From positions 1 to 36,676 of the forward strand of contig VXLT01000052.1 in assembly GCA_009841475.1 (NCBI GenBank): a DNA stretch of 36,676 nt, given 5' to 3'. The position numbers and the translations under genes were made by a program. The DNA comes from Gemmatimonadota bacterium (lineage in GTDB: Bacteria > Gemmatimonadota > Gemmatimonadetes > Longimicrobiales > Gaopeijiaceae). The notes under the pieces were generated by a model. That model saw nothing but the letters and a program-made list of their open reading frames with translations. It was not told the origin of the DNA and did not search any database. Below, piece by piece: positions 15,974 to 32,760 of the stretch; position 1 is the first letter of the stretch, and each line of letters opens with the position of its first letter.

Positions 15974-16375
15974 CTACGATTCTGCATCATCGACCGAGCC
16001 GGCATGTACTCCCGCCGAGGGTTCGGTTTCCGCAATTCGCGCTCGAATCCTCTTCGTAATCCCGCCGACTTCCTTCCTAGCGCCATACCACAGAATAATC
16101 AGTAAGGCACCGCCGATGTTCCCAATGACAGTCAGCACCAAGAAAACAACGAGCGTTGTCAATGACTCTATATCGACCGTTAGTAGCGATGTCAGGAACG
16201 ACATGCCTAGTGTCACCAGGAAGATCCCGAAGTTCAGATAGATCGAATATGGTGAGCCTCTTTCCAACGCATCCAATTCGGTCTCAGTCACCTCGTAGAT
16301 TGATAGCGAATCGACTCGGCCGCGGACGATCCGCACCTCCTTCAGGCCCGTTGACTCTTCGTCTTGAGGGGTCAC
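15974..16375 (-). CDS. Small protein with two predicted TM helices
   Basis: ...YSIYLNFGIFLVTLGMSFLTSLLTVDIESLTTLVVFLVLTVIGNIGGALLIILWYGARKEVGGITKRIRARIAE. A GTG at 16375 overlaps the upstream gene's TGA (GTGA). Confidence 0.65.
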   Translation of the reverse strand: MTPQDEESTGLKEVRIVRGRVDSLSIYEVTETELDALERGSPYSIYLNFGIFLVTLGMSFLTSLLTVDIESLTTLVVFLVLTVIGNIGGALLIILWYGARKEVGGITKRIRARIAETEPSAGVHAGSVDDAES

Positions 16376-16644
16376 AGGTTTTCCTTCAGCCACTCGTTTC
16401 TGCATATGACGTTTCGCCAAGCGGCTTCAGCACCCGATCTAACGACAAACATGCGGTCATCGCGATCAATGACTCGACAAAGCTCGTCACGTACCTGCGC
16501 GGCTGTCTTTTCCGTTACGATTGCCCACGTTGATTCGGTTATATGGGCCCATTTGGGATAGGACTTGATCGCCCTATAGAGGCTATCATAATCCCGATTG
16601 CCTCGAAGATCGTAGGAAATGATGTAGCATTTCATGGTCGTCAT
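16372..16644 (-). CDS. Cas2-like / SinR family protein
   Basis: MKCYIISYDLRGNRDYDSLYRAIKSYPKWAHITESTWAIVTEKTAAQVRDELCRVIDRDDRMFVVRSGAEAAWRN; Cas2-like first strand and length, no other cas genes. Confidence 0.7.
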   Translation of the reverse strand: MTTMKCYIISYDLRGNRDYDSLYRAIKSYPKWAHITESTWAIVTEKTAAQVRDELCRVIDRDDRMFVVRSGAEAAWRNVICRNEWLKENL

Positions 16645-16845: not shown

Positions 16846-19800
16846 TCACCCCATCCCCGCGTACCGCCTCAGCACCTCAACCCCTTGGTCCCTCAGCCGG
16901 TTCAGCATCTGCTGGAGCGCCCCCGGGTTCTTGCCATCCAATTCCGCCCGGTACGCATCGTCGGACGAGACCCTCGGTACCTGCCCACCAACAATGCTCC
17001 GAAGCCCCCGATAGGGTACGCCCCTTTCACACAGCCGCTCCACCGCATCGTCGTCCGCCGGAGTGAAGAATCCCTCTTGGACAGCCAGGATGTGGGCGCT
17101 CTCGAATAGAATCCGGCGGGCCTCCTCGCGGAGGCCACGGCGCTTCGCTCTTGTCATTTCTTCCTCCACCGCGGCAATAGCCCCGTCGAGTCGCGACCGC
17201 GCGTCTGCGAGGACCTCGCGGGCCCTACCGCGATCGGTGTCGGACCACCCGGCCTCGTGTTCCTTGGCGGCTCGCTCGTACGCCGAAATGGTGGCTACCT
17301 CACCAATCTGACCCTTCTCCTTGGCCACGCAGACCGCCACTGGGGGACGACCGCTGTCGCGCAGCAGCATGGCCGCCCCCGCCTCTTCGCTGTCCACCGT
17401 CCCCGCTGACTGATCCCGTGGTCCAATGACCTCGTCCAGCAGGGCGTCGAACGTGGGGTTTCCGTAGGTCAGCAGCTCAACGCTGGTCGGATGGCTATCG
17501 AATACCCAAGGGCTGAATGTCACTGCCCGGGGTGTGTCACCGGAATGAAGCCAGTATGCGTCGGGAATGGTGGCATGCGGGAGGAAACGCTGCCGCGTCA
17601 CATCGGAGCCGAGGAACGCACGCTTGATGTCCTCCACCCTAACCGGACTCTCGGGTGCAGTCGAGATTCCGATGCTCTCGTCCACCAACGCGTCCAGGTC
17701 GATTCCGGCCTGGTCATGGGCGTCGGCCTGCTGTTCGATCTCCGACAGGGTATCGTCGAAGTCCCTCTCCCGCTCTTGGCGGCCCATCATCGCCAGCTTC
17801 GTGATTGCGCGGCCGACATTGTGGAGAATGGGCTGGAGCGTCCCGACGACATGCTCGAACCAGTCGATCCGGTCGCTCAGCCGAGCGTAGACGATCGCCT
17901 CGACAGTGTCCCGGAAGAAGTAGTTATGGACATGGACCTCGTCGTGCCGCTGCCCGATGCGGTCGATGCGGCCGATACGCTGCTCGACGCGCATCGGGTT
18001 CCAGGGCATGTCGTAATTGATCAGGACTCCGCAGGTCTGGAGGTTCAAGCCCTCGCTGGCCGATTCCGTACAGATCAAAAGCCTGATGCTGTCTCCTCTG
18101 CGGAACGCCTCCTTGATTTCCTCCTTGTCGCGGAGCACCCATCCCTCTCCGTCCCAAGACTCGCCGCCCCGTCCCGAGTAGCAGGCGACACCAGACCCGT
18201 AGACCGAACGGAGACTCTCGCGCAGGTAGTCCATCGTGTCGGTGTACTGCGTGAAGAGGATCGCGGAGTCGTGAGTGTGAAAGATGGCCGTCAGTTGAGC
18301 CTTGAGGAATTCCAGTTTCGAGTCGGTGGCCAGGGCATTCAGGTCGGAGATGAAGTCGTCCAAGTAGGCCAGTTCCGTCTCGCGGGCCTGGCGGTCCAGC
18401 GTTCCCAAGTCCTCCACGGCGTCCATCCCGAGGTCATCCTGCTCCAGGTCCTCTTCGGTCAGGCCGATGTTCGCCACGGCATCGGCGTCACCGACGAGGA
18501 AGGCCCGCCGGCGTCCGAGACTCTCGCGAGCGGCATGGAAGGAGCTCGTGAGGCGTCGGCGGTACACCGTCATGACGAATCCGAGCCCCCTTCTACGCGC
18601 TTCGTATTTCCGGTAGAAATGGGAGATATATTCTTCGATCCGGTCGTAGAGCTCCTGTTCCTCCGGCGTGAACTCGATCCACTCGTTTCTCGGTTTTCGC
18701 TTGGGCACCCGTTCGCTCAGAATGCCACGCTGCCGATAGCGGTGGAGCAGATCACGACCGTTCCGCCAAACGAAGGTTCGTATGGGCGTATGGTGGCGGA
18801 TCATGTCACTGAGCACGGCTCTCGCTTCGGCGCCCAGTGCCTCGATCGTCGCGCGGCCTTTGATCGTGTGGGGAAGGGTCTTGACGGTGTTCCAGGTGAC
18901 CGGGCCGAGCTGACTGCGTGCCCGCTCCTCGAATGCCGGATCGATCTGGCCGCCGGTCTTGAGGAAATCCTTCCACATCCCGAGGAGAAACGGCCAGTCC
19001 CGCTGCTTGTAGGGATTCCTGACCTCCTCGAAGAACTTCAGGAAGTTCTCCTCATTCGCTCCCCAGCGGCCCTCGAGGCCGAGTAGCTTGAGCAGATCCC
19101 ACACCTCGATGGGATGCACCTGCATCGGTGTGGCCGTCAGCAAGTAGAGACACCGGGTGCGATCCTTCAGCCCCGGACGCTTGCCATGGCCCCCAAGTAG
19201 TTGCAGCAGGTGGTTGGGACGCCGGGCGCGGATGCCAAACTCCTTCCGCCTCGCGTGGTGCGCCTCGTCAACGAGGACCATGTCCCACTCGGGTTCCAGG
19301 ACTTCGTCCCGGCGGTCAGTGCGCTTGGCCAGCTGGCTGGAAGCGATCAGGTGATCGGCGCAACCCCATGGTGGCCCGTTGATCTGCCGCTCCACGCCGT
19401 GCACATCGACCAGAGCGCCGCGTTCGTAGCGAGGAATGTTGAGCGCGCACTTCTCCCACAGCTCCTCTTGCCACTGCCGGACGACACTCGCCGGCGCGAG
19501 GATTAGGGACCGCTGGACGCGCTTCGTTACGATGAGCTGACGGAGGGCAAGCCCCGCCTCGATCGTCTTTCCGAGCCCCACCTCGTCGCAGAACAGGAAG
19601 CTGCGCGGGAAGCGATCGACCACCGCGTCGATCACGCGGTCCTGGTGGGGCCAAGGGCTAACCGAGCTGGTCTCGATTCCGATTCGCGCGGCTTGCGGCA
19701 TGAACGGAGCGTCGCGAAGGAAACGGAACGTGGCCAGCTCGTGGCGCGATCGCCGCCTCTCCAAGGGATCGGTGGTAGGCACCTTGCTCGGTGCATAGTC

Positions 19801-20508
19801 CAGCAACCGCTGCCGCACGGCCTCTGGAAGCGGCAGCGCAATCCAGCCTGGATCTCCCGGTTCCCAGAGTGCCTGGAAGCGACGTTCGATCGGTGTGATG
19901 TAGTGGTCGGCGGGTGGCATACTGTGGGGGCCAGTCTGCCGCGGCCAAGACGCGAACACATGGAAGGTCTCGTAGTTCGACTGCCACCCACTTCGGGATT
20001 CGTTGCTGCTGCCGCTGAACGCCAACTTGTTTCCCTCGGCGTCCACGAAGACCCCCTCCTTGGGATGATAGTACTCCTGCGAGTCCGGCCTGGGGATGGG
20101 TTGGCCGTCGGGTCCCTTGGGGAGAACGACCCGGATCTCCAGCCTGTCGTGCGCGACGAGCCATGCCAGTGTCTCCAGCCGGGCAACCATGTCGGGGCCG
20201 GCCTCACTCTCGTGCTGATCGAACCGCCGGAGCATCGCCTTCTCCACGCTGCCCCTCAGCGATTCCCCGCGGAGGATCGCCTCCACATCCTCGGATGCGA
20301 GGTCCGCACCGCAAAGGAGCTGCATGGACCCACCGTTTGCGATCAGACGCGCGATCCCGGCCGCAGCAATGGCGAGCGCCGAGCTGGAGAAGTAGCCGGT
20401 GGACCGGCGGTAGAGCACGCTGCGTTCGAGCGCCGGCAGGTAGAAGTCGTGGAGGCGGTCGTCGCGCGGGCCGTAGGTGAACCGGAAGGGGTGGGACGGG
20501 AGGGTCAC
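16846..20508 (-). CDS. SNF2/superfamily II helicase with N-terminal phospholipase-D-like domain
   Basis: 1220 aa. N-terminus FYLPALERSVLYRRSTGYFSSSALAIAAAGIARLIANGGSMQLLCGADL...; Walker A FCDEVGLGKTIEAGLAL; DEAH in VLVDEAHHARRKE; LLTATPMQ; C-terminal LICTESASEGLNLQTCGVLINYDMPWNPMRVEQRIGRIDRIGQ. Confidence 0.92.
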   Translation of the reverse strand: MTLPSHPFRFTYGPRDDRLHDFYLPALERSVLYRRSTGYFSSSALAIAAAGIARLIANGGSMQLLCGADLASEDVEAILRGESLRGSVEKAMLRRFDQHESEAGPDMVARLETLAWLVAHDRLEIRVVLPKGPDGQPIPRPDSQEYYHPKEGVFVDAEGNKLAFSGSSNESRSGWQSNYETFHVFASWPRQTGPHSMPPADHYITPIERRFQALWEPGDPGWIALPLPEAVRQRLLDYAPSKVPTTDPLERRRSRHELATFRFLRDAPFMPQAARIGIETSSVSPWPHQDRVIDAVVDRFPRSFLFCDEVGLGKTIEAGLALRQLIVTKRVQRSLILAPASVVRQWQEELWEKCALNIPRYERGALVDVHGVERQINGPPWGCADHLIASSQLAKRTDRRDEVLEPEWDMVLVDEAHHARRKEFGIRARRPNHLLQLLGGHGKRPGLKDRTRCLYLLTATPMQVHPIEVWDLLKLLGLEGRWGANEENFLKFFEEVRNPYKQRDWPFLLGMWKDFLKTGGQIDPAFEERARSQLGPVTWNTVKTLPHTIKGRATIEALGAEARAVLSDMIRHHTPIRTFVWRNGRDLLHRYRQRGILSERVPKRKPRNEWIEFTPEEQELYDRIEEYISHFYRKYEARRRGLGFVMTVYRRRLTSSFHAARESLGRRRAFLVGDADAVANIGLTEEDLEQDDLGMDAVEDLGTLDRQARETELAYLDDFISDLNALATDSKLEFLKAQLTAIFHTHDSAILFTQYTDTMDYLRESLRSVYGSGVACYSGRGGESWDGEGWVLRDKEEIKEAFRRGDSIRLLICTESASEGLNLQTCGVLINYDMPWNPMRVEQRIGRIDRIGQRHDEVHVHNYFFRDTVEAIVYARLSDRIDWFEHVVGTLQPILHNVGRAITKLAMMGRQERERDFDDTLSEIEQQADAHDQAGIDLDALVDESIGISTAPESPVRVEDIKRAFLGSDVTRQRFLPHATIPDAYWLHSGDTPRAVTFSPWVFDSHPTSVELLTYGNPTFDALLDEVIGPRDQSAGTVDSEEAGAAMLLRDSGRPPVAVCVAKEKGQIGEVATISAYERAAKEHEAGWSDTDRGRAREVLADARSRLDGAIAAVEEEMTRAKRRGLREEARRILFESAHILAVQEGFFTPADDDAVERLCERGVPYRGLRSIVGGQVPRVSSDDAYRAELDGKNPGALQQMLNRLRDQGVEVLRRYAGMG

Positions 20509-20511
20509 GCG

Positions 20512-21354
20512 CTACGCATGGGGTGTCTGACGAGAGAAGACATATGACGCGACTTGACCTTCGTACACCTGGGCCGGGTTCAGAACCGCGTACTTCATCC
20601 AAAGACGCCACACGGCCTGCCATCTCTCGCCAGCGGGATCCGCTTCCTGTACCGGCAGCCCGAAACTCTTCGCGTCGGCCGCGGAAATGACGGCACCGTG
20701 ACTCTTCGGGCCCCCTATCAGAGGATCCTTCAGGGCCTCGGTGAGCGTCGCGACATCGGCCGGGGTGCGCTCAGCGACACACGCCAGCGCTTCCTTGACG
20801 AGATCATCCGTGCGGCCGAGTTGGTCGCGCGCCTGCTGCACCATCAGGGCGGTCACCGGTTCCAGCAAGGAGGCGTGAAGCGGATAGGTGCCGGGATGGT
20901 GCTGGATTCGCTGTTCCGCCGACTCGACCGCCGCGATTATGGCCCTGGCCGAGACGAGAGACCCGTCCGGCTGCTGGAACTGCGGGTCCACTGGCCCGAG
21001 GTCGCTGGTCGGGCCCATGTAGATGTGGTGAGCTCCCACGACGAATAGAGTGCCAGCGCTCTTCGCCTGGTCCGGCACGATCACAGTCAGTTCACGGCAT
21101 CGGGACTGCGCCTGACGGATCAGCCGGAGAGCGGTCTCACCGTCTCCCCCCTGCGTCGCCAGCATGACGTGAAGGTCTTTCTGCGGGTCGGCATCGAACA
21201 AGGTCTCTTCGAACAGCTGAATGCTGTGGGGGAAAAGGCCGTCCTGCATGACGACGAGCCGACAGTTGTAGTCCTCCTGATACTGGCGGATCAGACCCTG
21301 GCGCTCATACCGGGCTGCGTGGCCCGCCTCGTAGAGCGGCGTGCGGACGGTCAC
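20512..21354 (-). CDS. SDH_sah-type (ClpP/SppA fold) serine protease
   Basis: HVMLATQGGDGETALRLIRQAQ, VIVPDQAKSAGTLFVVGAHHIYMGPTSDLGPVDPQFQ match serine dehydrogenase proteinase-like signatures. GTG start at 21354 overlaps the upstream stop. Confidence 0.8.
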   Translation of the reverse strand: MTVRTPLYEAGHAARYERQGLIRQYQEDYNCRLVVMQDGLFPHSIQLFEETLFDADPQKDLHVMLATQGGDGETALRLIRQAQSRCRELTVIVPDQAKSAGTLFVVGAHHIYMGPTSDLGPVDPQFQQPDGSLVSARAIIAAVESAEQRIQHHPGTYPLHASLLEPVTALMVQQARDQLGRTDDLVKEALACVAERTPADVATLTEALKDPLIGGPKSHGAVISAADAKSFGLPVQEADPAGERWQAVWRLWMKYAVLNPAQVYEGQVASYVFSRQTPHA

Positions 21355-21569
21355 GGTTCGGGGAAACGCGACTGCCTCAAGATCGGGAGACCGCGTTTGT
21401 CGAAGGTCGCTGGCCGGTCGCCGCGGGCTTTTCGGGCCTGTACGCGGGCCTGCTTGGCGATCTCGATGCGCTCCCGCCAATCGGGATCGAACCCGGACGG
21501 GGGCGCTAGAGCCGGGGAGTGGTCAGAGCTCGCGGAAGCGGTTTCTTTCTTTGGCCGGGAATCGGTCAT
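21351..21569 (-). CDS. Small hypothetical protein (72 aa) coupled to the SDH protease
   Basis: MTDSRPKKETASASSDHSPALAPPSGFDPDWRERIEIAKQARVQARKARGDRPATFDKRGLPILRQSRFPEP; 4-nt overlaps at both ends. Confidence 0.6.
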   Translation of the reverse strand: MTDSRPKKETASASSDHSPALAPPSGFDPDWRERIEIAKQARVQARKARGDRPATFDKRGLPILRQSRFPEP

Positions 21570-21808
21570 TGATGGGCCTCCTTGGCAGCAAGCAAGATCA
21601 ATACGCGCGCGAGATTGTCGAGCGCCAGTACCGCATCAAGGTCGTTGGAGTTCCTTTCCAGTGCTTCGTGGATGATCCCGGAGTCCGTCAGGATGGTCCG
21701 ATTGGGAGTCTTGTGACGGCGCGTCCCACGCACGGGGCGCCAAGACGAAGTATAGCGGTTCCGATGGGCGGGTCCATGTTCTCGCGGGACTCTGGCCGGC
21801 CGGTTCAT
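21566..21808 (-). CDS. Small hypothetical protein (80 aa)
   Basis: ATG at 21808 overlaps upstream TGA (ATGA 21805-21808); stop overlaps downstream ATG (21566-21569). C-terminus DSGIIHEALERNSNDLDAVLALDNLARVLILLAAKEAHQ. Confidence 0.5.
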   Translation of the reverse strand: MNRPARVPREHGPAHRNRYTSSWRPVRGTRRHKTPNRTILTDSGIIHEALERNSNDLDAVLALDNLARVLILLAAKEAHQ

Positions 21809-22209
21809 CGCTCCACCCCAAACAGCAGATGCACCGCGAATGCCCGCTTGGCCCGAGCATCTGCATCCTCGAAGGCTTGAATCGCCTGCCGAGCCGTGGC
21901 GATCCGGTCCTGAACCTCCGACTTGAACCATTCGCCGTGCGGATCACGGTCTGCAGCGTGGCGGCGGTCCTGTGATTCCACGAATAACCGCGCGATTCCG
22001 CGAATGTTCTCTGGAAACGACGCGATCGCCGGGCGGGTGCACGCCTGCCGTGCGCTGTGGGGGTCCAGCGCCAAGTACACCCGGCGCCACTCGGTCTCTG
22101 TCGTTTCGGTGACCTTGCGACCCACCAAGGCGTCCGCACAGGATTTCGCCAGACAGTGGAAGAGCGCTTGGTACACGGTGCTCGTCGCACGGCGCAGGTC
22201 GGTCTCCAA
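21805..22209 (-). CDS. HEPN/UPF0332-like small protein (start uncertain, coding likely extends upstream to about 22257)
   Basis: TDLRRATSTVYQALFHCLAKSCADALVG...FVESQDRRHAADRDPHGEWFKSEVQDRIATARQAIQAFEDADARAKRAFAVHLLFGV; upstream in-frame sequence reads SDLIRSAERQLPRGRGRPLE. Confidence 0.5.
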   Translation of the reverse strand: METDLRRATSTVYQALFHCLAKSCADALVGRKVTETTETEWRRVYLALDPHSARQACTRPAIASFPENIRGIARLFVESQDRRHAADRDPHGEWFKSEVQDRIATARQAIQAFEDADARAKRAFAVHLLFGVER

Positions 22210-22258
22210 GGGCCTTCCGCGACCGCGTGGCAGCTGCCTTTCGGCAGACCGAATGAGG

Positions 22259-22570
22259 TCAGAAGCCTTCAGGTTTCCAGTCCCCCGCGTCGTCCTTGGC
22301 GATGAAGCGCGTGACCGGGATGGCGGTCACACCCATTTCCCCAAACATCTTCGCCACCCGATCCAGGAAAGCCGGTCGCCCGGGCGTCTGCAGCTCTGAC
22401 GCCTCTCCCTCGTAGACCGCATAGACATCCAGCACGACATCCCCGTACGCCGATTGTCGCGGTCGCACCCAGACACCGCTGAAAGCCACGCTGGGAAACG
22501 TCTCTGCGATGATTCGCTGGATTGCCGTTCTGACGTCGGTCAGGATCTCATCTCCGACGGATGCGTTCAT
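22259..22570 (-). CDS. Hypothetical small protein (103 aa)
   Basis: MNASVGDEILTDVRTAIQRIIAETFPSVAFSGVWVRPRQSAYGDVVLDVYAVYEGEASELQTPGRPAFLDRVAKMFGEMGVTAIPVTRFIAKDDAGDWKPEGF; operon position. Confidence 0.65.
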   Translation of the reverse strand: MNASVGDEILTDVRTAIQRIIAETFPSVAFSGVWVRPRQSAYGDVVLDVYAVYEGEASELQTPGRPAFLDRVAKMFGEMGVTAIPVTRFIAKDDAGDWKPEGF

Positions 22571-22658
22571 TGGAGGGTCTTTCGCTGCTCCCGTGGTTGG
22601 CCGGGCCGCGTGCCAAGTGGCTCCCAACCTGCCGGCCGTCCGGCGCGCCCGTCAACAC

Positions 22659-25541
22659 TCACAGCCGAAGATTGGCCTGCTCTACCTTCGGAGCCGGGTC
22701 GGGGGGTGCCTCGATGTCCTCGAAGAATGCCAGTCGCAAACCATCGAGGGCGCGTGCCTCGGGACGGACGAGCTTCCCGTTCTTTCTCACTCTGGGGACC
22801 GCGTTGACCAGAGCCTGAATGAGGGATCGGAAGGTGGCGTCGCGACGCAATGCAGCCCTCTTCAGGAATGCCTCGGTGGCCGCGGGACCTTCGTCCTCGT
22901 AGAGCAGCATGGCGGTGTGCGCGGCGTTTATCCACACCTCGAAACCCTCGGCATCCGGGTCCACCCGTCCGCGGCTGCGACGGTGGGACGCTGGCAGCAA
23001 CTCAACGCTGGCCCCCTTCTTCTTGAGAATCCGGTGCCCTGTGATGATGTCGCGCTCCAGATCGAGGCCCAACGCCAGGGCCAGCTTGCGAGCCTCGTCG
23101 GCCGGGAACTCCGCAGCCCTGAAGGCATCCCACGCCATTAGGTACCAGTCCGTGACCGGGTCGAACCGGGTGTCGCGTCCCAATAGGCCGCGCTTCCGCA
23201 ACTCCACCACCTCAGTGCGGGCCAGGTCCAGGGCGACATCCGGACGGAGCGGCTTCGGCTCGCCGGTCTCCTTGTCGAAGTCGGCGGAAAGCACCGGCCA
23301 GCTCTCCGAGAGAATGGCCAACGTGGGCCCGAACGTGGCGATGTAGAGGTCCACCCCGGAGATCCCCTGCTCCTGAAGCTCTTCAGCGGTATCGCGGGCC
23401 GTCCGGCGCACCCGTCCGCGAATGTCCTCCCACCACGCGGGTTCCGCCCCGCCCGGCCGCTTGCGGCAGGTCAGCAGGATGGTGCTCTTGGCGGCGTTCT
23501 TCTTCGCCTGGTGGAGCGAATGCTCGCTCTCGGTGTGAACGGGCCACGAGGAATGGATCGCGAACCCGGCTTCCAGCAGCGACATCGCGAGCGTGTCCCA
23601 CGCCTCTACCCTCTTGTGCGTGAACATGACGGTGAGCACTCCGTCGTCCGCCAGGACCCGGTGGGCCTCCCGGAACGCCGCAGCCATCTTGCGCTCGTAG
23701 TCGGCGCAAGCGAGTTGCTTCTTCTTGCGTCCCAAGCGGGCGAAGCGGGCCGGATTGGCGACGGCCTCGTCGTCCTTGTTCGCGAGCTCGTCCCCGAAGA
23801 GATCGGGGTGGACCGATCCCACGGTCCGCTTGAGCCACACGTAGAAGAAGTCCGACAGCTCCCCGTACATGACGTTGTCGTAATAGGGGGGGTCAGTGAG
23901 GACGACATCCACGCTACCGTCAGGGATGTGGGAGAGATCGGCAGCGGAAGCACGGGTCACCTGCACCGGAACGGGAGTCTCGGCGCGCTCGAAGACCCGG
24001 TGCGCCGGCTCGGCCAGTTTCGCTATTCCCTCGTAGGCGTCGCAAACCTGATCGAGGGCCCAAGGGAAGAGGTTCCGTGAGGCGTCGAACTCGCCGTAGG
24101 TCCACTTGAAGGCGAAGTCGTGGCGGTCGAAGACGCCGCGCATGACTTGGCGACCCGAGTGCCAGCTTGCCAGGTAGGAGTTGTAGTTGACCGCCTTGCT
24201 GAGCACCATTCCCAGGTACGTGACGACCGCCTTGGCCCTGTACCGGGGCAATTCCTTTTCGATTTCGGGGACCAATTCCTGGAGTGCTTCGACGTAGCTG
24301 CACAGCGAGAGGAGCTGGCGGGGCGCGAACATGTCGGCCCAAGTGGGCATGCCGTAGCGGAGGGGCCGCATGTCTGACGATACCTCCGGATACGCCTCTG
24401 TCGGGACGTACCCCTGCGCCTCCCAGCGAGGAAGCTCTGCGGCCAGCTTTTCTTCGGCCGCCTCAACCGCCCTCTGGTCGGCTTCGATTGGTGGCCGGTA
24501 ATCGAAACCACCGCGGGCACGCTTGACCGCCACGCAATACAGCTGGGAGCCCATGCGGCCTTCTTGAGCTTCCGTCTTGATGTACTTGCTCCCGACGGAT
24601 TGATCGTTGGCCCAAGGGGACCGGGCTGCGCCCCGCGCCAGAGTGCCCTCTCCGGGGTCGAAGCCGTCGGCGGCGGTCCCGTCGATCTCCGCGATCTCGA
24701 AACGGGCCGTTTCGGAGTCCGGGTCGAACACGGGTCGCACGGCGATTCCGGTGGACCCGGAGCGGGACAGCCACCAGTTGGGGGCGAGGGGGATGGGCTT
24801 GCCGGTGTAGGGGCAGCGGACGGTGCGGGCCCAGAGGTAGGCTACCCCGACGGCCTTGGCCTCGTCCTCGAGATGAGAGAAGTGAGGTCGCAGCCGCTCC
24901 TGGACACTCTGGCACAACACGCGGCCGTGTTTCTGGAGATCGTTCGTCAGCGCCGGGCCGAAGGCAAACGGGTAGTCCAGCGTGCCTCTCAGGATCGTGC
25001 AAGCGACCGGATTCAGCTCCGTCGCATGGGTATCGAATCCGTACCTGAGCGCTTCGAAAGGAATCGAACCGCCACCGGAGAACGGATCAAGAACCGTCCT
25101 ATTCCTGTGTCCGTTCGATTGCTCCAGCAGGTCTTCGAAGTCCTTCAACATCTCTGGCGGGGCGGCGACTGTAAACGCACGGTCGTGAGTGTACGGATTC
25201 GGGATACGATGTCCGGCCTCACCGGCCAGCTGCAGCTTGGCGCGAGCGGTTACAGGGTCGCCGTGAATCCCGCTGAGCCTCACAAACCAATCACGGTACT
25301 CGACCTCAGAGAGGAAACATCCTCTCTCGCGGCCGAAGCGGGCCACATCCTTGTTCCACCGGGGCACTACGCTGGCCAAGAGAGCGGCCCGGCTTGCCGC
25401 AAGGGGCCGCCGCGCCCACCACACATGGAGGAAGTAAAGTGGGGGCAGGGCGCTGGAGGCACCACGCTCTCGCATGGACTCGCAACCGACCGTCTCAATT
25501 GGAAACCAGTCCTCGATCAGGGTGCGGCGGCGTTCGTTCAC
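22659..25541 (-). CDS. DUF1156-containing adenine-specific DNA methylase
   Basis: N-terminus LIEDWFPIETVGCESMRERGASSALPPLYFLHVWWARRPLAASRAALL (DUF1156) and methylase motif DVVLTDPPYYDNVMYGELSDFFYVWLKR. Confidence 0.93.
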   Translation of the reverse strand: MNERRRTLIEDWFPIETVGCESMRERGASSALPPLYFLHVWWARRPLAASRAALLASVVPRWNKDVARFGRERGCFLSEVEYRDWFVRLSGIHGDPVTARAKLQLAGEAGHRIPNPYTHDRAFTVAAPPEMLKDFEDLLEQSNGHRNRTVLDPFSGGGSIPFEALRYGFDTHATELNPVACTILRGTLDYPFAFGPALTNDLQKHGRVLCQSVQERLRPHFSHLEDEAKAVGVAYLWARTVRCPYTGKPIPLAPNWWLSRSGSTGIAVRPVFDPDSETARFEIAEIDGTAADGFDPGEGTLARGAARSPWANDQSVGSKYIKTEAQEGRMGSQLYCVAVKRARGGFDYRPPIEADQRAVEAAEEKLAAELPRWEAQGYVPTEAYPEVSSDMRPLRYGMPTWADMFAPRQLLSLCSYVEALQELVPEIEKELPRYRAKAVVTYLGMVLSKAVNYNSYLASWHSGRQVMRGVFDRHDFAFKWTYGEFDASRNLFPWALDQVCDAYEGIAKLAEPAHRVFERAETPVPVQVTRASAADLSHIPDGSVDVVLTDPPYYDNVMYGELSDFFYVWLKRTVGSVHPDLFGDELANKDDEAVANPARFARLGRKKKQLACADYERKMAAAFREAHRVLADDGVLTVMFTHKRVEAWDTLAMSLLEAGFAIHSSWPVHTESEHSLHQAKKNAAKSTILLTCRKRPGGAEPAWWEDIRGRVRRTARDTAEELQEQGISGVDLYIATFGPTLAILSESWPVLSADFDKETGEPKPLRPDVALDLARTEVVELRKRGLLGRDTRFDPVTDWYLMAWDAFRAAEFPADEARKLALALGLDLERDIITGHRILKKKGASVELLPASHRRSRGRVDPDAEGFEVWINAAHTAMLLYEDEGPAATEAFLKRAALRRDATFRSLIQALVNAVPRVRKNGKLVRPEARALDGLRLAFFEDIEAPPDPAPKVEQANLRL

Positions 25542-26404
25542 TCAGCCTCCGTTCGGTGGCCGCCAGTTGCGTCCGGCGCCTGCGTCGCGAACAGGTTCGT
25601 CTGCCGCTCGTGCGGAACAGGCAGGACCCCGACGATCGTCCACGGATTCGGCGCGCGTTTGTGCCACGCGAGCGTGGTGCCGAGGAAGAGGTGCAGGTCG
25701 GACTCGCGGAACTGGTCGAAGTACTTCTGCCTCACCTTCGCGAGGGCCTCAGCCTCGTCGCCGTTAGTCAGCCGCACGCAGTTTCGATACAGTGCTCCGA
25801 GCTGCCACTCCAAGACCCGCATGCGGCTCCGCTTCCCGTCGGCGTCCTCGATACGATAGTGGAAGTTGTAGGGGACCTTGTCGACGACCTGAAAAGTCCG
25901 ATGCCACGACTCCTCGTCAAAGAGGTCCCGCTGGCTCACGATGGCCCGCGCTGCCTCCAGTCTCGCCGGGTCCCACTCGCGATCCGCCATCTCCCAACCG
26001 AAGTCGATCACGCGCGCAGGCTTGAAGATCGCGAGGGACACGCCATCGTCCTGCGCGGCGCGTATCAGCTCGTCGAGTCTGCGGTAGACCCGTGCTCGCC
26101 GGAGGAGAAGCTCCCGTCGCTCTCGCCAATCGTCGGAGGTGCCGACATGACTGATCCACTCGATCTCGCCGGTTGGCCGGTGCGACTCGGGACGGGGGTC
26201 CGCCGAATGCTTGATCAGGGGGCATTCGATCCAATCGTAGAGCTTGTACTGCTCTCCTTCGCCCAGCCGCCGAAACGGCACGGGATAGAGACGCACCCAG
26301 GTTCCGTCCTCGCGGATTCCCGCGGTACAGACGGTCTCGCCGTACTTCGAAGAAAGCTCCGGATAAGTCTTGACCGTGACGAGTATGCGCTCCCTGTCAG
26401 TCAT
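25538..26404 (-). CDS. Dual OB-like domain protein
   Basis: MTDRERILVTVKTYPELSSKYGETVCTAGIREDGTWVRLYPVPFRRL...KLYDWIECPLIKHSADPRPESHRP; stop overlaps DUF1156 GTG start (GTGA 25538-25541). Confidence 0.65.
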   Translation of the reverse strand: MTDRERILVTVKTYPELSSKYGETVCTAGIREDGTWVRLYPVPFRRLGEGEQYKLYDWIECPLIKHSADPRPESHRPTGEIEWISHVGTSDDWRERRELLLRRARVYRRLDELIRAAQDDGVSLAIFKPARVIDFGWEMADREWDPARLEAARAIVSQRDLFDEESWHRTFQVVDKVPYNFHYRIEDADGKRSRMRVLEWQLGALYRNCVRLTNGDEAEALAKVRQKYFDQFRESDLHLFLGTTLAWHKRAPNPWTIVGVLPVPHERQTNLFATQAPDATGGHRTEAE

Positions 26405-26408
26405 GGCG

Positions 26409-27353
26409 CTACAGGTGCTTCGGTAAGAAAGGGCGGGATGACCGGGCCGCTATCGCGCTCGCCACGCGGGATCGATGGCACTCGCGGAAGTCCCGTTCGT
26501 AGCATGTGAGCGCGACACGGTCTCCCCCGTTGATCCAGGTGAGTATGCGGTCTAGGGCGCCAGTCTCCTCTTTGAGAGTGGTGGCTTCGTAATCGTCGAA
26601 CAGGCGATCGTAATCGGGCGCTCCATTCAGGTCGGCACGCCGTTCGGATGCGATTCCGAGCTCCGGGAGCGATTCGTACTTGATTCCCAGCTGCCGACAA
26701 CCGTCGGCGAGCGTCCGCTTGGAGAAGCCCCACTTCCGGCTCGTCGGGCTCCGGCGAACATCGCAGAGGCGGGAAACATGGACCTGCCACAGCGCGTTGA
26801 AGTAGCCCTCGTAGCTCCGTCCTTCGTAGCCGACCGTGACCAGCGGACCAGCGGGACGGATGGAGCGCGCCGCGGCCAAGCGCTCTCGGGTTGCCGGGTC
26901 GTCCTGCAGCACCCGATTCACGATCCCGCTGCGGGAAGCGTGATATGGGGACCGGCGGTACGTTTCAGCCACTAGGGCATCGCCTCGGAGATCCCAGTTC
27001 CGCAGTGCGAAGAGGGTTGTGTGCCGGTTCGCGAACGATGCGGCGACTTGGTCGCCGGCCGGAGTAAGGTGCCAAGCGTCACCATCCGCGAGAATCCCGC
27101 GTCGGACGAGCTTGTCCCGGTCTGCGCTCGCAGTGAATGAAAACGCCCCTTGGCTGTGGGGAATGAAGTCGTAAGGGGGCGTCCCGCCACCTTTCTGACG
27201 GTGCAGCCCGAAGAGAAACAGAAGCTTCTGGAAATCCCGATCTCCCACCTCCCCGCCGAAGGCCCTCAGGAGGGCCACCAGCACGCGCTGACGAAGTAGC
27301 AGTCGCGGAACCGCCAGGGGCGCGACGCCCCCTGCACGAGATGTATCACCCAT
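26409..27353 (-). CDS. DUF488 domain protein with extra N-terminal domain
   Basis: VTVGYEGRSYEGYFNALWQVHVSRLCDVRRSPTSRKWGFSKRTLADGCRQLGIKYESLPELGI...VALTCYERDFRECHRSRVASAI. N-terminus RDFQKLLFLFGLHRQKGGGTPPYDFIPHSQGAFSF. Confidence 0.82.
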   Translation of the reverse strand: MGDTSRAGGVAPLAVPRLLLRQRVLVALLRAFGGEVGDRDFQKLLFLFGLHRQKGGGTPPYDFIPHSQGAFSFTASADRDKLVRRGILADGDAWHLTPAGDQVAASFANRHTTLFALRNWDLRGDALVAETYRRSPYHASRSGIVNRVLQDDPATRERLAAARSIRPAGPLVTVGYEGRSYEGYFNALWQVHVSRLCDVRRSPTSRKWGFSKRTLADGCRQLGIKYESLPELGIASERRADLNGAPDYDRLFDDYEATTLKEETGALDRILTWINGGDRVALTCYERDFRECHRSRVASAIAARSSRPFLPKHL

Positions 27354-27568
27354 CCGACGGAATCGCCGCCCTTGAGCTTGCATCCAGCCGTAAATCGCGG
27401 AGTTCGTCTTCGATCCAGCGCGCCGGTTCCTGACCGAGAGCCCGCTGGGAGCGTCGGCTGGCCTCACCCGTGTTGCTAGCGGATCGGGCGCCGTCGGATC
27501 GGTCGGCGACCTCTATGGCCCCGTCATGAACAACGCGGGAGCGTGCAGGGCTTCTTCTCTCCTCGCGG

Positions 27569-27590
27569 GTGGGGTGGCGAATCACCCCAC
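27569..27590. repeat. Hairpin GTGGGGTG-GCGAAT-CACCCCAC inside a small repeat-like intergenic block
   Basis: 8-bp perfect stem and 6-nt loop; flanked by CCCGTCAT (27520-27527), ATGACGGG (27594-27601), CCCGTCAT (27620-27627). Confidence 0.6.
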
Positions 27591-27638
27591 GGAATGACGG
27601 GTGCGGGGTTCTCTGTGTGCCCGTCATGCCTGGCGCGT

Positions 27639-27827
27639 TCACTCGCGGATCTGACCGCGGGCGCTGCGCACAAGCCGCCGCAACTCGTCGCGGACGTTGT
27701 CGAAGGACCGCTCAGCATCTGCGATAGCCTGCTGACGGATCTCCTCGTAAACGCGAGCCTTCCTAGGGTCGGTCCGACGTCCGTCCGGGTCCTCGATGCG
27801 CTCAAGCTTAAACGGCTTGTACTTCAC
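27639..27827 (-). CDS. Small charged hypothetical protein (62 aa)
   Basis: GTG start at 27827: MKYKPFKLERIEDPDGRRTDPRKARVYEEIRQQAIADAERSFDNVRDELRRLVRSARGQIRE; overlaps the upstream gene end by 20 nt. Confidence 0.6.
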   Translation of the reverse strand: MKYKPFKLERIEDPDGRRTDPRKARVYEEIRQQAIADAERSFDNVRDELRRLVRSARGQIRE

Positions 27828-29115
27828 TGTTGGCCTCCCGCTGTGTGTGATGTGGTGATCGTCTTTCGAAGTAGTCGCGATTGAGAGAGGGATCGAAGTA
27901 GTGTTTGCGCTTGATCCAAATGAAGCCATCTCCTCTTGAGATAACAGCAACATCAATCGGCCCGCCCACGGTCTCCTCCTCCATCGACACCCGCCGCTTC
28001 AGTGAGGTCAAGTTGACCAGCGCCTCGGCCATACTCGCCAATTCCTCCTTGGGAAGATGTCTGACAATACCCAATACGGGCTCTACAAACCTTGACCGAC
28101 AAAACGAGGCCATCGCCTGGTGGAAATCCGCGAGCTCAGTCTGCACGACAGCTCGTATTGCAGAGATCTGATTCTCACCAAGAGTCGCTCCCGCGTCCTC
28201 GGCCTCGACAAGGTCGCTTGTCGTCTTGGTGAGTAGCGCGTCGATGTAGTTCTCCAAGTAACTCATTAATTCGTTATCTACACCGTTCATAAAGCGACCC
28301 ACCATCTCACTTTGAGCAAACGCGTTTATTGATGTCTGGATGCCGTCGCGATCAAGATCAACTACATTCTTGACGTAACCCTTGACGGTATTGGCAATGG
28401 ATCCATCCGTTACAACCTCGACCAGGCTTGGAAGAATTTCATCCTGGCCAAACCCAGCGAATACCAGGCCCGAGTAGCCACTCGATCGTGTCTCACTCTT
28501 GATGAATGCTGTGAGAACGTCACAAAGTGACTGCCGAAGCGACTCGTTGATTGCGATTTCACGAAAGCGATGGTCGATCACCTCGTAAACGGCGGCTTCA
28601 TGCTCCCGTACGAGCGCGTCGGCATCGATGTGTTGCATGGAAGATGCTTCGCCGACACTGGCCAGTGCCGCCATGTGCTCGTTGACGACGGTGTGAATCA
28701 GGGCCGAAACGTCAAGGGCGCCACCCGGCGTATTATCGTTGAGCCGGTTTCTGACATCCCAAGCAATTCGTTGGAACAGGTCATTGGAGATGCGCAGCAG
28801 ATTGCTTTGACATTGTTCATCGGTACAAATCGCCGCGTTTCCGATATATCCAAGAAAATCCTCCGCGTATTCCTGTACAGTGGATTTGCTCGACGTACCG
28901 AGTTGCTGCCTATACATCTTGACGATTGTCTCCCATGGGACATTCATGAATTCGGCATTGTTGTAAATCATGATGCCTATGGGATGGTGCTTCGACAGCG
29001 CGAAGAGCTTGTTGGTCGGATATGTCTTGCGCGCGTTGGCAACGGAAACGGTCATCGCGCTGTCCGCCGCCAATGCCACAGCGGTCTTGTTCATCACAGC
29101 TACTTCCGCGGTCAT
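27808..29115 (-). CDS. Predicted proteasome/HslV-like Ntn-hydrolase
   Basis: MTAEVAVMNKTAVALAADSAMTVSVANARKTYPTNKLFALSKHHPIGIMIYNNAEFMNVPWETIVKMYRQ; Thr after Met and a downstream TNKLF Lys are arranged as in HslV/proteasome beta subunits. Long C-terminal extension. Confidence 0.6.
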   Translation of the reverse strand: MTAEVAVMNKTAVALAADSAMTVSVANARKTYPTNKLFALSKHHPIGIMIYNNAEFMNVPWETIVKMYRQQLGTSSKSTVQEYAEDFLGYIGNAAICTDEQCQSNLLRISNDLFQRIAWDVRNRLNDNTPGGALDVSALIHTVVNEHMAALASVGEASSMQHIDADALVREHEAAVYEVIDHRFREIAINESLRQSLCDVLTAFIKSETRSSGYSGLVFAGFGQDEILPSLVEVVTDGSIANTVKGYVKNVVDLDRDGIQTSINAFAQSEMVGRFMNGVDNELMSYLENYIDALLTKTTSDLVEAEDAGATLGENQISAIRAVVQTELADFHQAMASFCRSRFVEPVLGIVRHLPKEELASMAEALVNLTSLKRRVSMEEETVGGPIDVAVISRGDGFIWIKRKHYFDPSLNRDYFERRSPHHTQREANSEVQAV

Positions 29116-29133
29116 CGTCTCGGTTCCCTCCCG

Positions 29134-29616
29134 TCACTCATCCGACACCATGATCCGCAGGGCCCGCTGAACCCGGCCCTGCCCCGGCCCTGCCGTCACC
29201 TTGCTGAACCAGTAGTACACCTCCTCGCGCTCCATGGCCGAGATTGCCCCTGCGACCTCCTCGATGCGCCGGAACTTCCGCAAGGGCTTCAGGGCGGCGA
29301 ACAGCAGGCCGAGCCGAACCGCGTCCTCCTCGTTGATCCGGAACGGGGCGCGGCGCGTGGCCTTCAGGTCCGCCGAGCGATAGCCAGCCCGCCGGATGAC
29401 CGCGAGCACCTGATCCAGGATGGCCAGAAGAGGGTCACCCCACACGCGGACCACCTGCTCCCCGTCGGGCACGTTGCCGTTGCGGGAAGAACCACGGCGA
29501 TGGAGAGCGATCCCGTACCCGATATCGTCCCGGGGCTGGACCCGGAGCTCGTAGGCGGGCTCAGGGACGGGATGGAGGGTTGCAGCCGAGGCGTGGGGGG
29601 TCGGGGGCGGCGGCAT
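29134..29616 (-). CDS. DUF3780-like protein
   Basis: 160 aa; YELRVQPRDDIGYGIALHRRG...EEVYYWFSKVTAGPGQGRVQRALRIMVSDE, and position between DUF499 and methylase genes. Confidence 0.75.
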   Translation of the reverse strand: MPPPPTPHASAATLHPVPEPAYELRVQPRDDIGYGIALHRRGSSRNGNVPDGEQVVRVWGDPLLAILDQVLAVIRRAGYRSADLKATRRAPFRINEEDAVRLGLLFAALKPLRKFRRIEEVAGAISAMEREEVYYWFSKVTAGPGQGRVQRALRIMVSDE

Positions 29617-29625
29617 GATCCAAAC

Positions 29626-32600
29626 CTACCTCATCGAGAGCTGCGGGTCTACGCCCTCGTGCTCCTCCGCCCGCGCTTCGATCCGGCCCACATCGAGCTG
29701 CACGAGCACGTCCCGCAGCGTCTGGTAGCCGGTGGAGACAGGGGCGAGACCGTGGGCGTACGTCGCTGTCAGCACGTTCCGCACGCTCGCTTTGGAGGCC
29801 TCACGGGCCTGGGTCTCCAAGGGGGAACGAAGCCGCTTGTATCGCTTCCAGTCGCCACCGAAGGTCACGCTGAGCGATCCTTCGGCACCTGCGTCACCGA
29901 ACTCCGCCGTCAGTTCCTGGGCCAACCGGTACTCCCCTTTCGGAAACTGCGGTACGGCTACGCCGAGCGACTGCATGTCGGGTATTCCCTCGCAAGTAAT
30001 GACGAGCCTCCCGATGAGTTCTCGTCCGGCATCGTGGAAGCCGTCGGCGATGCGCTGGAAGACCCTTGCCGGAGCACCGCTCTCGGTGACGACGAGTAGC
30101 TTGGATTGCTCGGGTTCGGCACCCGTCCCGCACCTGCATTCCACCTGTCCGCAAAGCGGACACTGCTCGGGCTTGGGTTCCGTCCCCTTCTTCGTCGGCT
30201 GGTCAGGGAACACCCGTCGAGCCTCCTCGGGGGTGTACAGCATCGCGTCTTCGGAAATCTCGACGAGCGGGGCGGGCGATTCCTTCCCGTAGGCCCGGTC
30301 TCGCTTCGGGTCATGATACACCCACACGCCCTGACTGCAGCCGTTCTTGATCGTCTTCTTGAGTTGGTTCGGATCCAGAAGAACCTTGAGTCCCAGGCGC
30401 TTCGCGAATTCCCGGCGAAGATCCTCGGTGGACATCCTTTCCCGGCCCCTCAGCCATGCCTTCGCCTTGACGAACTGGGCGCTGAGGGCGGGGCCGTCAC
30501 CGGTCAGGACCTTCTCAAGTTTGCTGAGTACGCCCACGAGTGCGGCGGTCTGATCCCGGCTTACCTTGCCCTGCTCCTGGGCCGGCAATGCCTCGTATGC
30601 GAGGTGATCGGCACGCTTGGGAGCGTCAGCGGACGGATAGAACAGGTGTCGATAGGCCCGTGTGATCGCGACCCGAATATCCAGTTCGGCGGCATTTCCC
30701 ATGCTGCGAAGCCGCTTCTGCTGGTCCTTGCTGAACTGGGCCAAGCGCCCCCGGTCATTCACGATCCGGCGGATTCCGAGATGGCGCTGGGCGAGTTCCA
30801 CCATCCGCTCCGACGCGCTCTCGTCTGCCACGAGGAAGACGATGTTGTTCTTGAACGTTCGGTGGCTCTCGGCAGTCCCGGCGTGGGAGAACAGCTTTCG
30901 TACGAGGTCGGGTGGCTCGGGGCGGGCACCGGTACCCACATCGAGCGAGCAAGCCTCGAAGTGGGGTATCGCGAGCTTGGGAGTGCGCGAGTCGTCGGGC
31001 AGCTCCGCGGCTTCGGCCGGGAAGTAGACCGGCTTGAAGGTCCCAGGCCGCCACACGTGCTGGATGCGCTCGTCGATCTCCTGCTTGGCGCGAACCACGC
31101 CCACCAGGGACAGCTCGTCCTGGACGACCTTTTCGAGGCTCGGTTCGGTCTTGAAGAGGTAGAGGCGCCCATCCCAGTGCAGGAACCAGAAGGCTTCGCC
31201 AGCGGCACCTCGTTGCTCGCCCTGCGCCCGCGAGAGTGTCTTGCGTAGAAGCTGTGGGTCGTCGCCAGGCTGAATCGAAGCCGCGAGCAGATCCTGCAAC
31301 TCCACTCCGGCTGCTATGCCCTGCGTCAAACTGTGGACGAAGATGGTGGTGGCCAAGCGCCGGCCGTACGGGGGCTTCTCCTCCGCACGCCAGCGTTCAT
31401 CGAGTTTCTCGGCGTGAGCGGGCGTGCCAGGCCGACCGCTGGCAATGTCGGCCTCGACCACCTGCCGGAACACCGGCCGGGCGAGCCGCGATGTGAGGTC
31501 GTTGAGGATGTCATCGTTCCCGAGATCGATGTGGAACGGTGCTATCGTCCACGCGTCGGCTGGCTGCCCGTCCCAGAGTCGGCGGATCATCCGAGCGAGG
31601 AGCCGCAAGGCACCCCGCGTCTTCTGGAACTGCGGGATCGTCGCCGTTTTGCGGGTCAGCACGGTGAAGAGCTCGGGGTGGAACGGGTAATTCCTCACCA
31701 TTTCCGCGTGGAAATCCGCACGGAGCATGCGCTCGGGGATCTTGGCTCCGCGTTCCACCAGTCCACGGTAGTAGGCCTGGTAGGTGTCGGCCGTCTCGGC
31801 GGCAGCGGACTCGTCAAAGGAATCGAAGAGCCTGTGGCGCACGATGGCCGCGATCTCTGCTTCGGCGGCTGGCGTGATGACCCGCTCCTGGCGGGCCGCC
31901 ACCTTTCGGACCTCATCGAGTTCCTCCTGGAGCATGACGGTCTCGCTGCCGAATGCGTCGGAGGCATCGGCCAGGGTGAGAACGAATACGATGTTCCTGC
32001 GCCCAGCCGCCAACTCGATCAAGGTCATCAGGAAAGCCACCGTTTGCTCGGCCAAGTCGCTTTGGCGGTTGGCCGTCGCCACGGCCTTAGCAGTCCGAAG
32101 GTGACGCGCGATCTCGTCGAGCATGATCAGCGTGGGCCGATCGCCGACGATCCGATCGAGCGCTTGTGTGCCGGGCGCAATCAGCTCTTCGTCCGACCTT
32201 CGGACGTGGTCGTATGCCTCCGTACCGCCGTCAGCCCCGTTGCGGCTGGAGCCGAGCTGCCACGCCAATTCACCCCAGAGAGTCCGGGTCCGCACCGGCC
32301 CGTGGTCGATCCCCTCCACGGGGTCCAAGTCGGAGCCAACGACACCGGCGACCGACCATTCTTGGGTGGGAAGCCAATACGGACCCGGAACGATGTCTCC
32401 GTGAGGGATGCCACGGGCCGCGTTGCTCTCTGTGGCTTCGAGGGCGGCCTGCCCGCCGCCGCGCACGATGTGGTACAGGGCAATGAGGTTATGAGTCTTG
32501 CCCCCGCCGAATGAGGTCTCCAAGCGAATGAAGGGGCTATTGGATGCCTCCCGGCCCGAGAGTCGGCCGAGGACCTCGCGTGTCAGCGTCCTGAGCCCCT

Positions 32601-32760
32601 CGGTAGGGAAGGTGTTGCGAAAGAATGTGGCGGGATCCTGGTAGACGGGGTCGGCAGTGCCTTCGATCACATCGCGGAGGCGGGCCGCGAAGGTCTCGTC
32701 GGTGAGGTCCCCAGCCAGGACTTCCGGGCGAGGGCGGCAGGTTTCGAAGATCGGCTTCAT
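29626..32760 (-). CDS. DUF499-like AAA ATPase
   Basis: 1044 aa; Walker A FIRLETSFGGGKTHNLIALYHIV; Walker B-like PTLIMLDEIARHL; CPLCGQVECRCG cluster near the C-terminus. Confidence 0.92.
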   Translation of the reverse strand: MKPIFETCRPRPEVLAGDLTDETFAARLRDVIEGTADPVYQDPATFFRNTFPTEGLRTLTREVLGRLSGREASNSPFIRLETSFGGGKTHNLIALYHIVRGGGQAALEATESNAARGIPHGDIVPGPYWLPTQEWSVAGVVGSDLDPVEGIDHGPVRTRTLWGELAWQLGSSRNGADGGTEAYDHVRRSDEELIAPGTQALDRIVGDRPTLIMLDEIARHLRTAKAVATANRQSDLAEQTVAFLMTLIELAAGRRNIVFVLTLADASDAFGSETVMLQEELDEVRKVAARQERVITPAAEAEIAAIVRHRLFDSFDESAAAETADTYQAYYRGLVERGAKIPERMLRADFHAEMVRNYPFHPELFTVLTRKTATIPQFQKTRGALRLLARMIRRLWDGQPADAWTIAPFHIDLGNDDILNDLTSRLARPVFRQVVEADIASGRPGTPAHAEKLDERWRAEEKPPYGRRLATTIFVHSLTQGIAAGVELQDLLAASIQPGDDPQLLRKTLSRAQGEQRGAAGEAFWFLHWDGRLYLFKTEPSLEKVVQDELSLVGVVRAKQEIDERIQHVWRPGTFKPVYFPAEAAELPDDSRTPKLAIPHFEACSLDVGTGARPEPPDLVRKLFSHAGTAESHRTFKNNIVFLVADESASERMVELAQRHLGIRRIVNDRGRLAQFSKDQQKRLRSMGNAAELDIRVAITRAYRHLFYPSADAPKRADHLAYEALPAQEQGKVSRDQTAALVGVLSKLEKVLTGDGPALSAQFVKAKAWLRGRERMSTEDLRREFAKRLGLKVLLDPNQLKKTIKNGCSQGVWVYHDPKRDRAYGKESPAPLVEISEDAMLYTPEEARRVFPDQPTKKGTEPKPEQCPLCGQVECRCGTGAEPEQSKLLVVTESGAPARVFQRIADGFHDAGRELIGRLVITCEGIPDMQSLGVAVPQFPKGEYRLAQELTAEFGDAGAEGSLSVTFGGDWKRYKRLRSPLETQAREASKASVRNVLTATYAHGLAPVSTGYQTLRDVLVQLDVGRIEARAEEHEGVDPQLSMR

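Follow-up and report, generated by a model that had tools for sequence, protein, structure and literature searches.

Between positions 16,846 and 32,760, the minus strand of the DNA analyzed here (the window, one entire contig of 36,676 bases from an assembly of 369 contigs) carries thirteen closely packed open reading frames (ORFs), which raises the question of whether they encode a single defence machine or a smaller core in which other genes are lodged. All thirteen lie on one strand and are separated by −20 to +18 bp, with three exceptions of 49–171 bp. According to Pfam, PADLOC, and NCBIfam, their 5′ to 3′ order is DUF499, DUF7680, a proteasome-like Ntn peptidase, a 62-aa ORF, DUF488 (PDC-M19A), PDC-M19B, a DUF1156 methylase (HmaB-like), four small ORFs, an SDH protease, and a PLD/SNF2 helicase. 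An earlier reading made from the letters alone (the sequence-only reading) had positioned these genes correctly, and the genes are real. Nine of them (the four core genes and those of the Ntn peptidase, its 62-aa neighbour, the SDH protease, the DUF488 protein, and PDC-M19B) were compared with a close relative and gave pN/pS values of 0.25–0.5, which shows that they are under purifying selection and are not chance frames. Pfam matches likewise bear out the DUF499, DUF1156, DUF488, SDH protease, and SNF2 helicase assignments of that reading.

Four of the genes form a recurrent core. The first (29,626–32,760) encodes a DUF499 AAA+ ATPase of the HmaC/BrxC type (PF04465, 1e-38; HmaC, 2e-92) with a Walker A (GGGKT) and a Walker B (LIMLDE) motif, and the second (29,134–29,616) a small DUF7680 protein. 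The third (22,659–25,541) is an N6-adenine methylase that combines a DUF1156 head with a DPPY motif at residue 550 (PF06634, 1.5e-13; PF01555; HmaB, 1.3e-86) and whose affiliation is also supported by its tree. The fourth, an SNF2-type helicase (16,846–20,508; PF00271/PF00176), shares the operon with the DUF499 and DUF1156 genes. Its PLD (HKD) N-terminus is a weak match in Pfam (16.4 bits against a cut-off of 27), but NCBIfam model NF042964 matches the protein from residue 12 onwards, and an HxK...GSxN signature that accompanies the helicase motifs is retained across 16 aligned helicases, so the earlier PLD assignment is upheld. The NCBIfam equivalog models for the anti-phage DUF499, DUF1156, and PLD proteins reach 369 of 1100 bits (NF042964, helicase), 228 of 1000, and 213 of 1200 (NF042962, DUF499), that is, between one fifth and one third of the respective cut-off, which makes this core a divergent branch.

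PADLOC and Pfam scans found no match to PglZ or BrxB in the operon, which sets it apart from Type-3 BR and BREX systems with their PglZ and BrxB/iSTAND components. The proposal of an RM-like core of methylase, ATPase, and PLD helicase without PglZ, BrxA, or BrxB is thus supported, and it fits the DUF499-centred BR and Hma systems (PMC8565338; PMC12839542). Hma is a three-gene system that, unlike the window core, has no DUF7680; its HmaB and HmaC models match the window methylase and ATPase, whereas the window helicase scores better with the PLD-helicase model (2e-71) than with HmaA (8e-62). Type-2 BR, as described by Rakesh & Krishnan 2026 (PMC12839542), shares with the window the DUF499 ATPase, the DUF1156-type N6 methylase, the HKD(PLD)-SNF2 helicase, a small protein between the ATPase and the methylase, and cargo within the operon. 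The Type-2 feature of an HKD domain at the helicase N-terminus in TUDOR's place also appears to be present in the window helicase, judging from its motifs.

The small protein is where the two differ. The sequence-only reading had called it DUF3780, the family that stands alone in 98% of Type-2 BR taxa according to the same paper. The Pfam profile rules this identity out and assigns the protein to DUF7680 (PF24728, 4e-31), which occupies the slot of DUF3780. A search for DUF7680 in 298 Gemmatimonadota genomes gave matches in 13, and the better-assembled loci among these repeat the order DUF499-DUF7680-DUF1156-PLD helicase. The bare four-gene core is present in one locus (L124) and on three IMG/VR contigs (L305–L307), and the identical order is found on plasmids of Rhodococcus, Aminobacter, Sinorhizobium, and Nostoc, in three of which a "hypothetical protein" of about 160 aa scans as DUF7680. 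In Haloarcula, where the order is likewise conserved, the DUF7680 match is weak (1e-9) and a core of this type is probable; the Roseomonas core is partial. Altogether, DUF7680 occupies the same slot in 15 related cores with a DUF7680 match and in L127 (PF24728, 2.4e-7). Gene order is also the same in loci annotated by NCBI as anti-phage DUF499/DUF3780/DUF1156/PLD, with DUF3780 taking the place of DUF7680.

Trees of the methylase and of the DUF499 protein separate the DUF7680 branch from the DUF3780 branch with support of 100/100 and 98/99, respectively; as they contain 22–23 sequences, some of them long rows, they are to be read as showing two branches without an order of origin. The DUF499 variants covered are those of the collections searched. 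Because DUF7680 replaces DUF3780, we file the core as a sister variant of Type-2 BR and not as a member of it. The two small proteins are plausibly remote kin: the AlphaFold2 (AF2) model of DUF7680 (pLDDT 76) contains four strands and five longer helices, and this predicted make-up resembles that described for DUF3780 in PMC12839542. Profile comparison with hhalign aligned an EE..W...AL(R) stretch at a probability of 2.7% (P 0.017), and a fold search of the DUF7680 model against the PDB returned no match. DUF3780 was found neither in 150 genomes of the phylum nor in 50 genomes with an Ntn homologue, in searches whose controls were equally silent, so that its absence is not proven. The DUF7680 branch adds to the BR/Hma family a form that is not named in the main text of the 2026 survey (PMC12839542), and it may be listed within Type-1 or Type-2 in the supplementary tables of that paper. 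Our literature searches found no publication that links DUF7680, DUF488, or proteasome-like phage defence proteins to defence.

Directly behind DUF7680 lies the gene of the Ntn peptidase (27,808–29,115). The protein has no meaningful Pfam match and falls in phrog_5990 (3.7e-111), a PHROG of unknown function. In an alignment of 50 relatives, M1-T2-A3-E4, D18, and K36 are invariant; the relatives were chosen by an MTAE-like start, so that the conservation of the start is partly a selection effect, while that of D18 and K36 is unaffected. Once the methionine is removed, T2, D18, and K36 are the equivalents of proteasomal Thr1, Asp17, and Lys33. A profile search against the PDB listed only archaeal proteasome β chains, at a non-significant E of 0.5. 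The AF2 model (pLDDT 85.8, pTM 0.85) retrieves 20S proteasome β subunits and Anbu first in Foldseek; because the window protein has long helical insertions, these matches extend over the common fold only (TM-score about 0.5 on the target). The Ntn-hydrolase-like nature suggested from the sequence is thus confirmed by proteasome-like residues and the predicted fold. In the model the insertions come after H1/H2 and split H3/H4 (helical stretches 99–206 and 314–351), which agrees with the PMI-4 pattern of insertions in the pore loop and between H3 and H4. The same fold, T1/D17/K33 triad, and insertions after H1/H2 and between H3/H4 characterize PMI-4, a "proteasome homolog with multiple insertions" (Fuchs, Alva, Lupas 2021, PMC8665760), which like the window family occurs in bacteria, Euryarchaeota, and phages. 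Going by these features rather than by alignment to the reference HDY66466.1, the window protein is most likely PMI-4.

The Ntn gene overlaps by 20 bp at its 3′ end with the 62-aa ORF (27,639–27,827). This ORF, proposed earlier as a gene, proves to be one by its position, its homologues at the same place in two other genomes (G138 and G060), and a pN/pS of 0.25; a link of its product to Trypco1 was dropped (E 0.19). A small-partner HMM, trained on 30 of the 41 loci that it detects so that 11 are independent, finds a partner in 41 of 80 Ntn loci at E<1e-3, in every case directly 3′ of the Ntn gene and mostly overlapping it. The HMM misses the window's own 62-aa protein and most provirus partners; the position of the small partner is conserved more clearly than its sequence.

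Relatives of the Ntn protein number 246 in bacterial and archaeal genomes, and only a few of the 80 loci kept are near BR or RM genes; the family is also present in 13 phage records, including Streptococcus satellite phages whose records end with it, and on at least 114 IMG/VR contigs. The PMI-4 paper reports no genomic context. The loci analyzed here add one, in the form of a small gene next to the peptidase, cargo sites in proviruses, and surroundings with RM/BR genes, and from it a hypothesis can be framed for a proteasome homologue that its discoverers had to leave without a context. We read the pair as cargo, plausibly a defence or lysogen-exclusion module. We tentatively propose that PMI-4/phrog_5990 and its partner of about 60 aa constitute a two-gene anti-phage or superinfection-exclusion module of proviruses, satellites, and restriction operons. 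If this is true, a proteasome-fold peptidase would serve as a phage-defence effector. Lysogeny control or element stabilisation fits the pair nearly as well, which is why we put defence at about one third.

The strongest competitor, a serious one that we still regard as short of probable, is that the pair is a housekeeping or phage-lifestyle peptidase, processing for example a repressor or late regulator, that has no part in defence and is in this operon by accident. In proviruses its neighbours include Q antiterminators and CI-like repressors, as this explanation would have it, besides holins and endolysins; a Pfam scan of 102 neighbours returned mostly unrelated families, with at most a mild excess of methylases; and Fuchs et al. 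reported no telling context (PMC8665760). Yet RM/BR-type genes lie within 5 kb of the Ntn gene in 9 of 78 loci and in none only at 5–10 kb, a count that, with near and far spans of 608 and 448 kb and a small query set taken partly from the same loci, serves as a lead but does not measure enrichment. Moreover, RM/BR genes enclose or adjoin the Ntn gene in the window, L019, L024, L015, and L077, and satellite-phage and prophage records end with it, a position usual for cargo. A toxin-antitoxin-like pair that stabilises its host element and has no anti-phage role would account for the two-gene layout, the overlap, and the mobility, but the small gene is downstream and so variable in sequence that the HMM recovers only about half of the loci, and we consider this explanation rather unlikely. 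The two kinds of protease come together a second time in a Nitrospirae locus (L029, 2356–14149): there the Ntn gene comes after an Eco57I-type methylase gene, an SNF2 helicase is encoded upstream, and an SDH-family protease gene lies 1.9 kb downstream.

Most of the remaining extra genes also fall into pairs. The DUF488 protein (26,409–27,467, start codon unsure; PF04343, 5e-23; PDC-M19A, 4.5e-80) and the protein read earlier as dual-OB-like (25,538–26,404), which is PDC-M19B (PDLC04508, 8.5e-99), both match the PADLOC candidate PDC-M19 strongly and are encoded by adjacent genes. In the window this candidate is nested in a BR core, whereas elsewhere in the phylum it stands apart from such cores: seven other genomes have the two genes, in most cases side by side, and the stretches read there contain no core gene. 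The SDH-type Clp-fold serine protease (20,512–21,354; PF01972, 33.0 bits against a cut-off of 31.3; NF047768, 2.7e-13; phrog_11747, 1.6e-31) has catalytic S, D, and H residues that are invariant in an alignment of seven relatives. Its three nearest relatives (65–71% identity) are encoded directly behind a homologue of the 72-aa ORF that precedes it in the window (o72, 21,351–21,569), again with no core gene on the stretch read. Remoter relatives, which share the protease family and the invariant triad, are instead placed behind ThiF and DUF6527 genes. Four such loci (L163–L166) may represent a ubiquitin-like-pathway operon with a protease.

The HEPN-like 134-aa protein (o134, 21,805–22,209) has no match in Pfam or PADLOC and no meaningful one in NCBIfam. 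Its family motif YYALFH...RHxADYDP resembles HEPN by eye, and an Rx4-6H motif was not seen by eye. Of 249 genomes, 12 have the family; all but one of these belong to the window's genus, where it is multicopy, and its members are often preceded by a small ORF in the position of the 103-aa ORF of the window (o103, 22,259–22,570). Among these small ORFs, just the one that precedes the HEPN-like gene in L184 (9e-29) clearly resembles o103; in some other copies the resemblance is weak. The 80-aa ORF (o80, 21,566–21,808), an open frame with 4-bp overlaps on both sides, has no homologue in the loci searched.

The window proteins were searched for directly in 26 related cores, drawn from Gemmatimonadota genomes, plasmids, archaea, and viral contigs; L212 has no DUF499 on the stretch read, and L222 and L223 are other DUF499 systems. 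None of the 26 carries the genes of the Ntn peptidase, its 62-aa partner, the SDH protease, o72, DUF488, PDC-M19B, o134, o103, or o80. The sequence-only reading had taken the locus for one system with the peptidases, small ORFs, and HEPN-like protein as its regulators or effectors; neither idea is supported, since all 26 homologous cores do without both peptidases and the small ORFs, the pattern that this reading had itself named as its refutation, and each extra occurs elsewhere in a pair of its own (Ntn with its small ORF, o72 with SDH, DUF488 with PDC-M19B, o103 with the HEPN-like gene). The census also rules out a conserved protease-BR system. In the core, cargo occupies two slots, one after the small second gene and the other between the methylase and the helicase. 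Other cores hold VapBC (Nostoc, Thiodictyon, Deinococcus), an MBL protein (Roseomonas), SLFN_AlbA (L114), or DUF932 (L122) in these slots, and nested protease cassettes like those of the window are not described in the main text of PMC12839542.

We therefore conclude with considerable confidence that a four-gene DUF499-centred RM-like defence core has taken up four or more independent gene pairs, lodged in two slots within it. A new multi-gene machine with the peptidases, the DUF488/PDC-M19B pair, and the small ORFs as genuine subunits is improbable, for despite the tight same-strand packing with 4-bp overlaps and a second species that keeps DUF499-DUF7680-Ntn-s62-DUF488 in the same order, the census is empty even for the two cores nearest to the window (L122 and L124, about 70–75% identity), the cassettes are found alone elsewhere, and the second species' copy is decayed in its core but intact in the Ntn pair. 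The thirteen-gene puzzle thus resolves into testable units, and the two slots illustrate how such operons accumulate independent modules.

The decayed composite copy (G138:C196, L012/L018) contains DUF499 remnants in several frames and DUF7680 and DUF488 genes that are apparently frameshifted, and its Ntn and 62-aa genes remain open. This suggests that the Ntn pair is maintained by itself, but it also means that the composite lasted or spread at least once. That persistence counts against fully independent cassettes, as do three further Ntn loci (L030, L046, and L077) in the vicinity of BR genes. Another composite of this kind is found on a Klebsiella plasmid (L222), where DUF499, a SIR2 protein, an ATP-binding protein, DUF1156, and an SNF2 helicase are encoded together. 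In an otherwise intact core (L116, 8452–9396), a transposase-like ORF splits the DUF1156 methylase gene.

The analysis shows (i) the gene content, (ii) the independence of the cassettes, (iii) the conserved catalytic residues, (iv) the Ntn fold, as a prediction, and (v) the carriage by proviruses; every functional step of the following model goes beyond these observations and is inferred. The methylase would mark host DNA at adenine. The DUF499 ATPase would assemble a complex and, with DUF7680 as a possible reader, check DNA, whereupon the helicase would move on unmarked DNA and its PLD nuclease would cut. Such RM-like working is argued for BR systems in PMC12839542, and the motifs of the window core are consistent with it. 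Each cassette would be a module of its own, in which a toxin, protease, or effector is joined by a small cognate protein; transcribed together with the core, it would be stacked on it as a second layer without becoming part of one machine. In the Ntn pair, the small partner may dock on, or be processed by, the N-terminal-threonine peptidase; our working guess is that it restrains the peptidase until infection, upon which the peptidase would degrade a host or phage protein. The overlapping starts throughout the operon suggest joint expression, and cooperation between cassettes and core within this operon is possible.

The window contig carries further genes of interest outside the operon. Just downstream of it, positions 16,372–16,644 of the minus strand encode a 90-aa Cas2-like protein (PF09827, 1.2e-4, just under the cut-off; PADLOC Cas2b, 1.2e-7). 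A GmrSD-type restriction protein is encoded at 13,010–15,013 on the same strand (PF03235, 3e-28; PADLOC HEC-05, 5e-36), and a weak GmrSD match is also located downstream of the related core in L122. What looks like a further defence gene lies on the plus strand of the contig (7911–11,111): its 1066-aa product has an AAA domain, ends in a PRTase-CE domain (PF24390, 1.3e-44), and matches the PADLOC model for the retron type III-A PRTase (3e-35).
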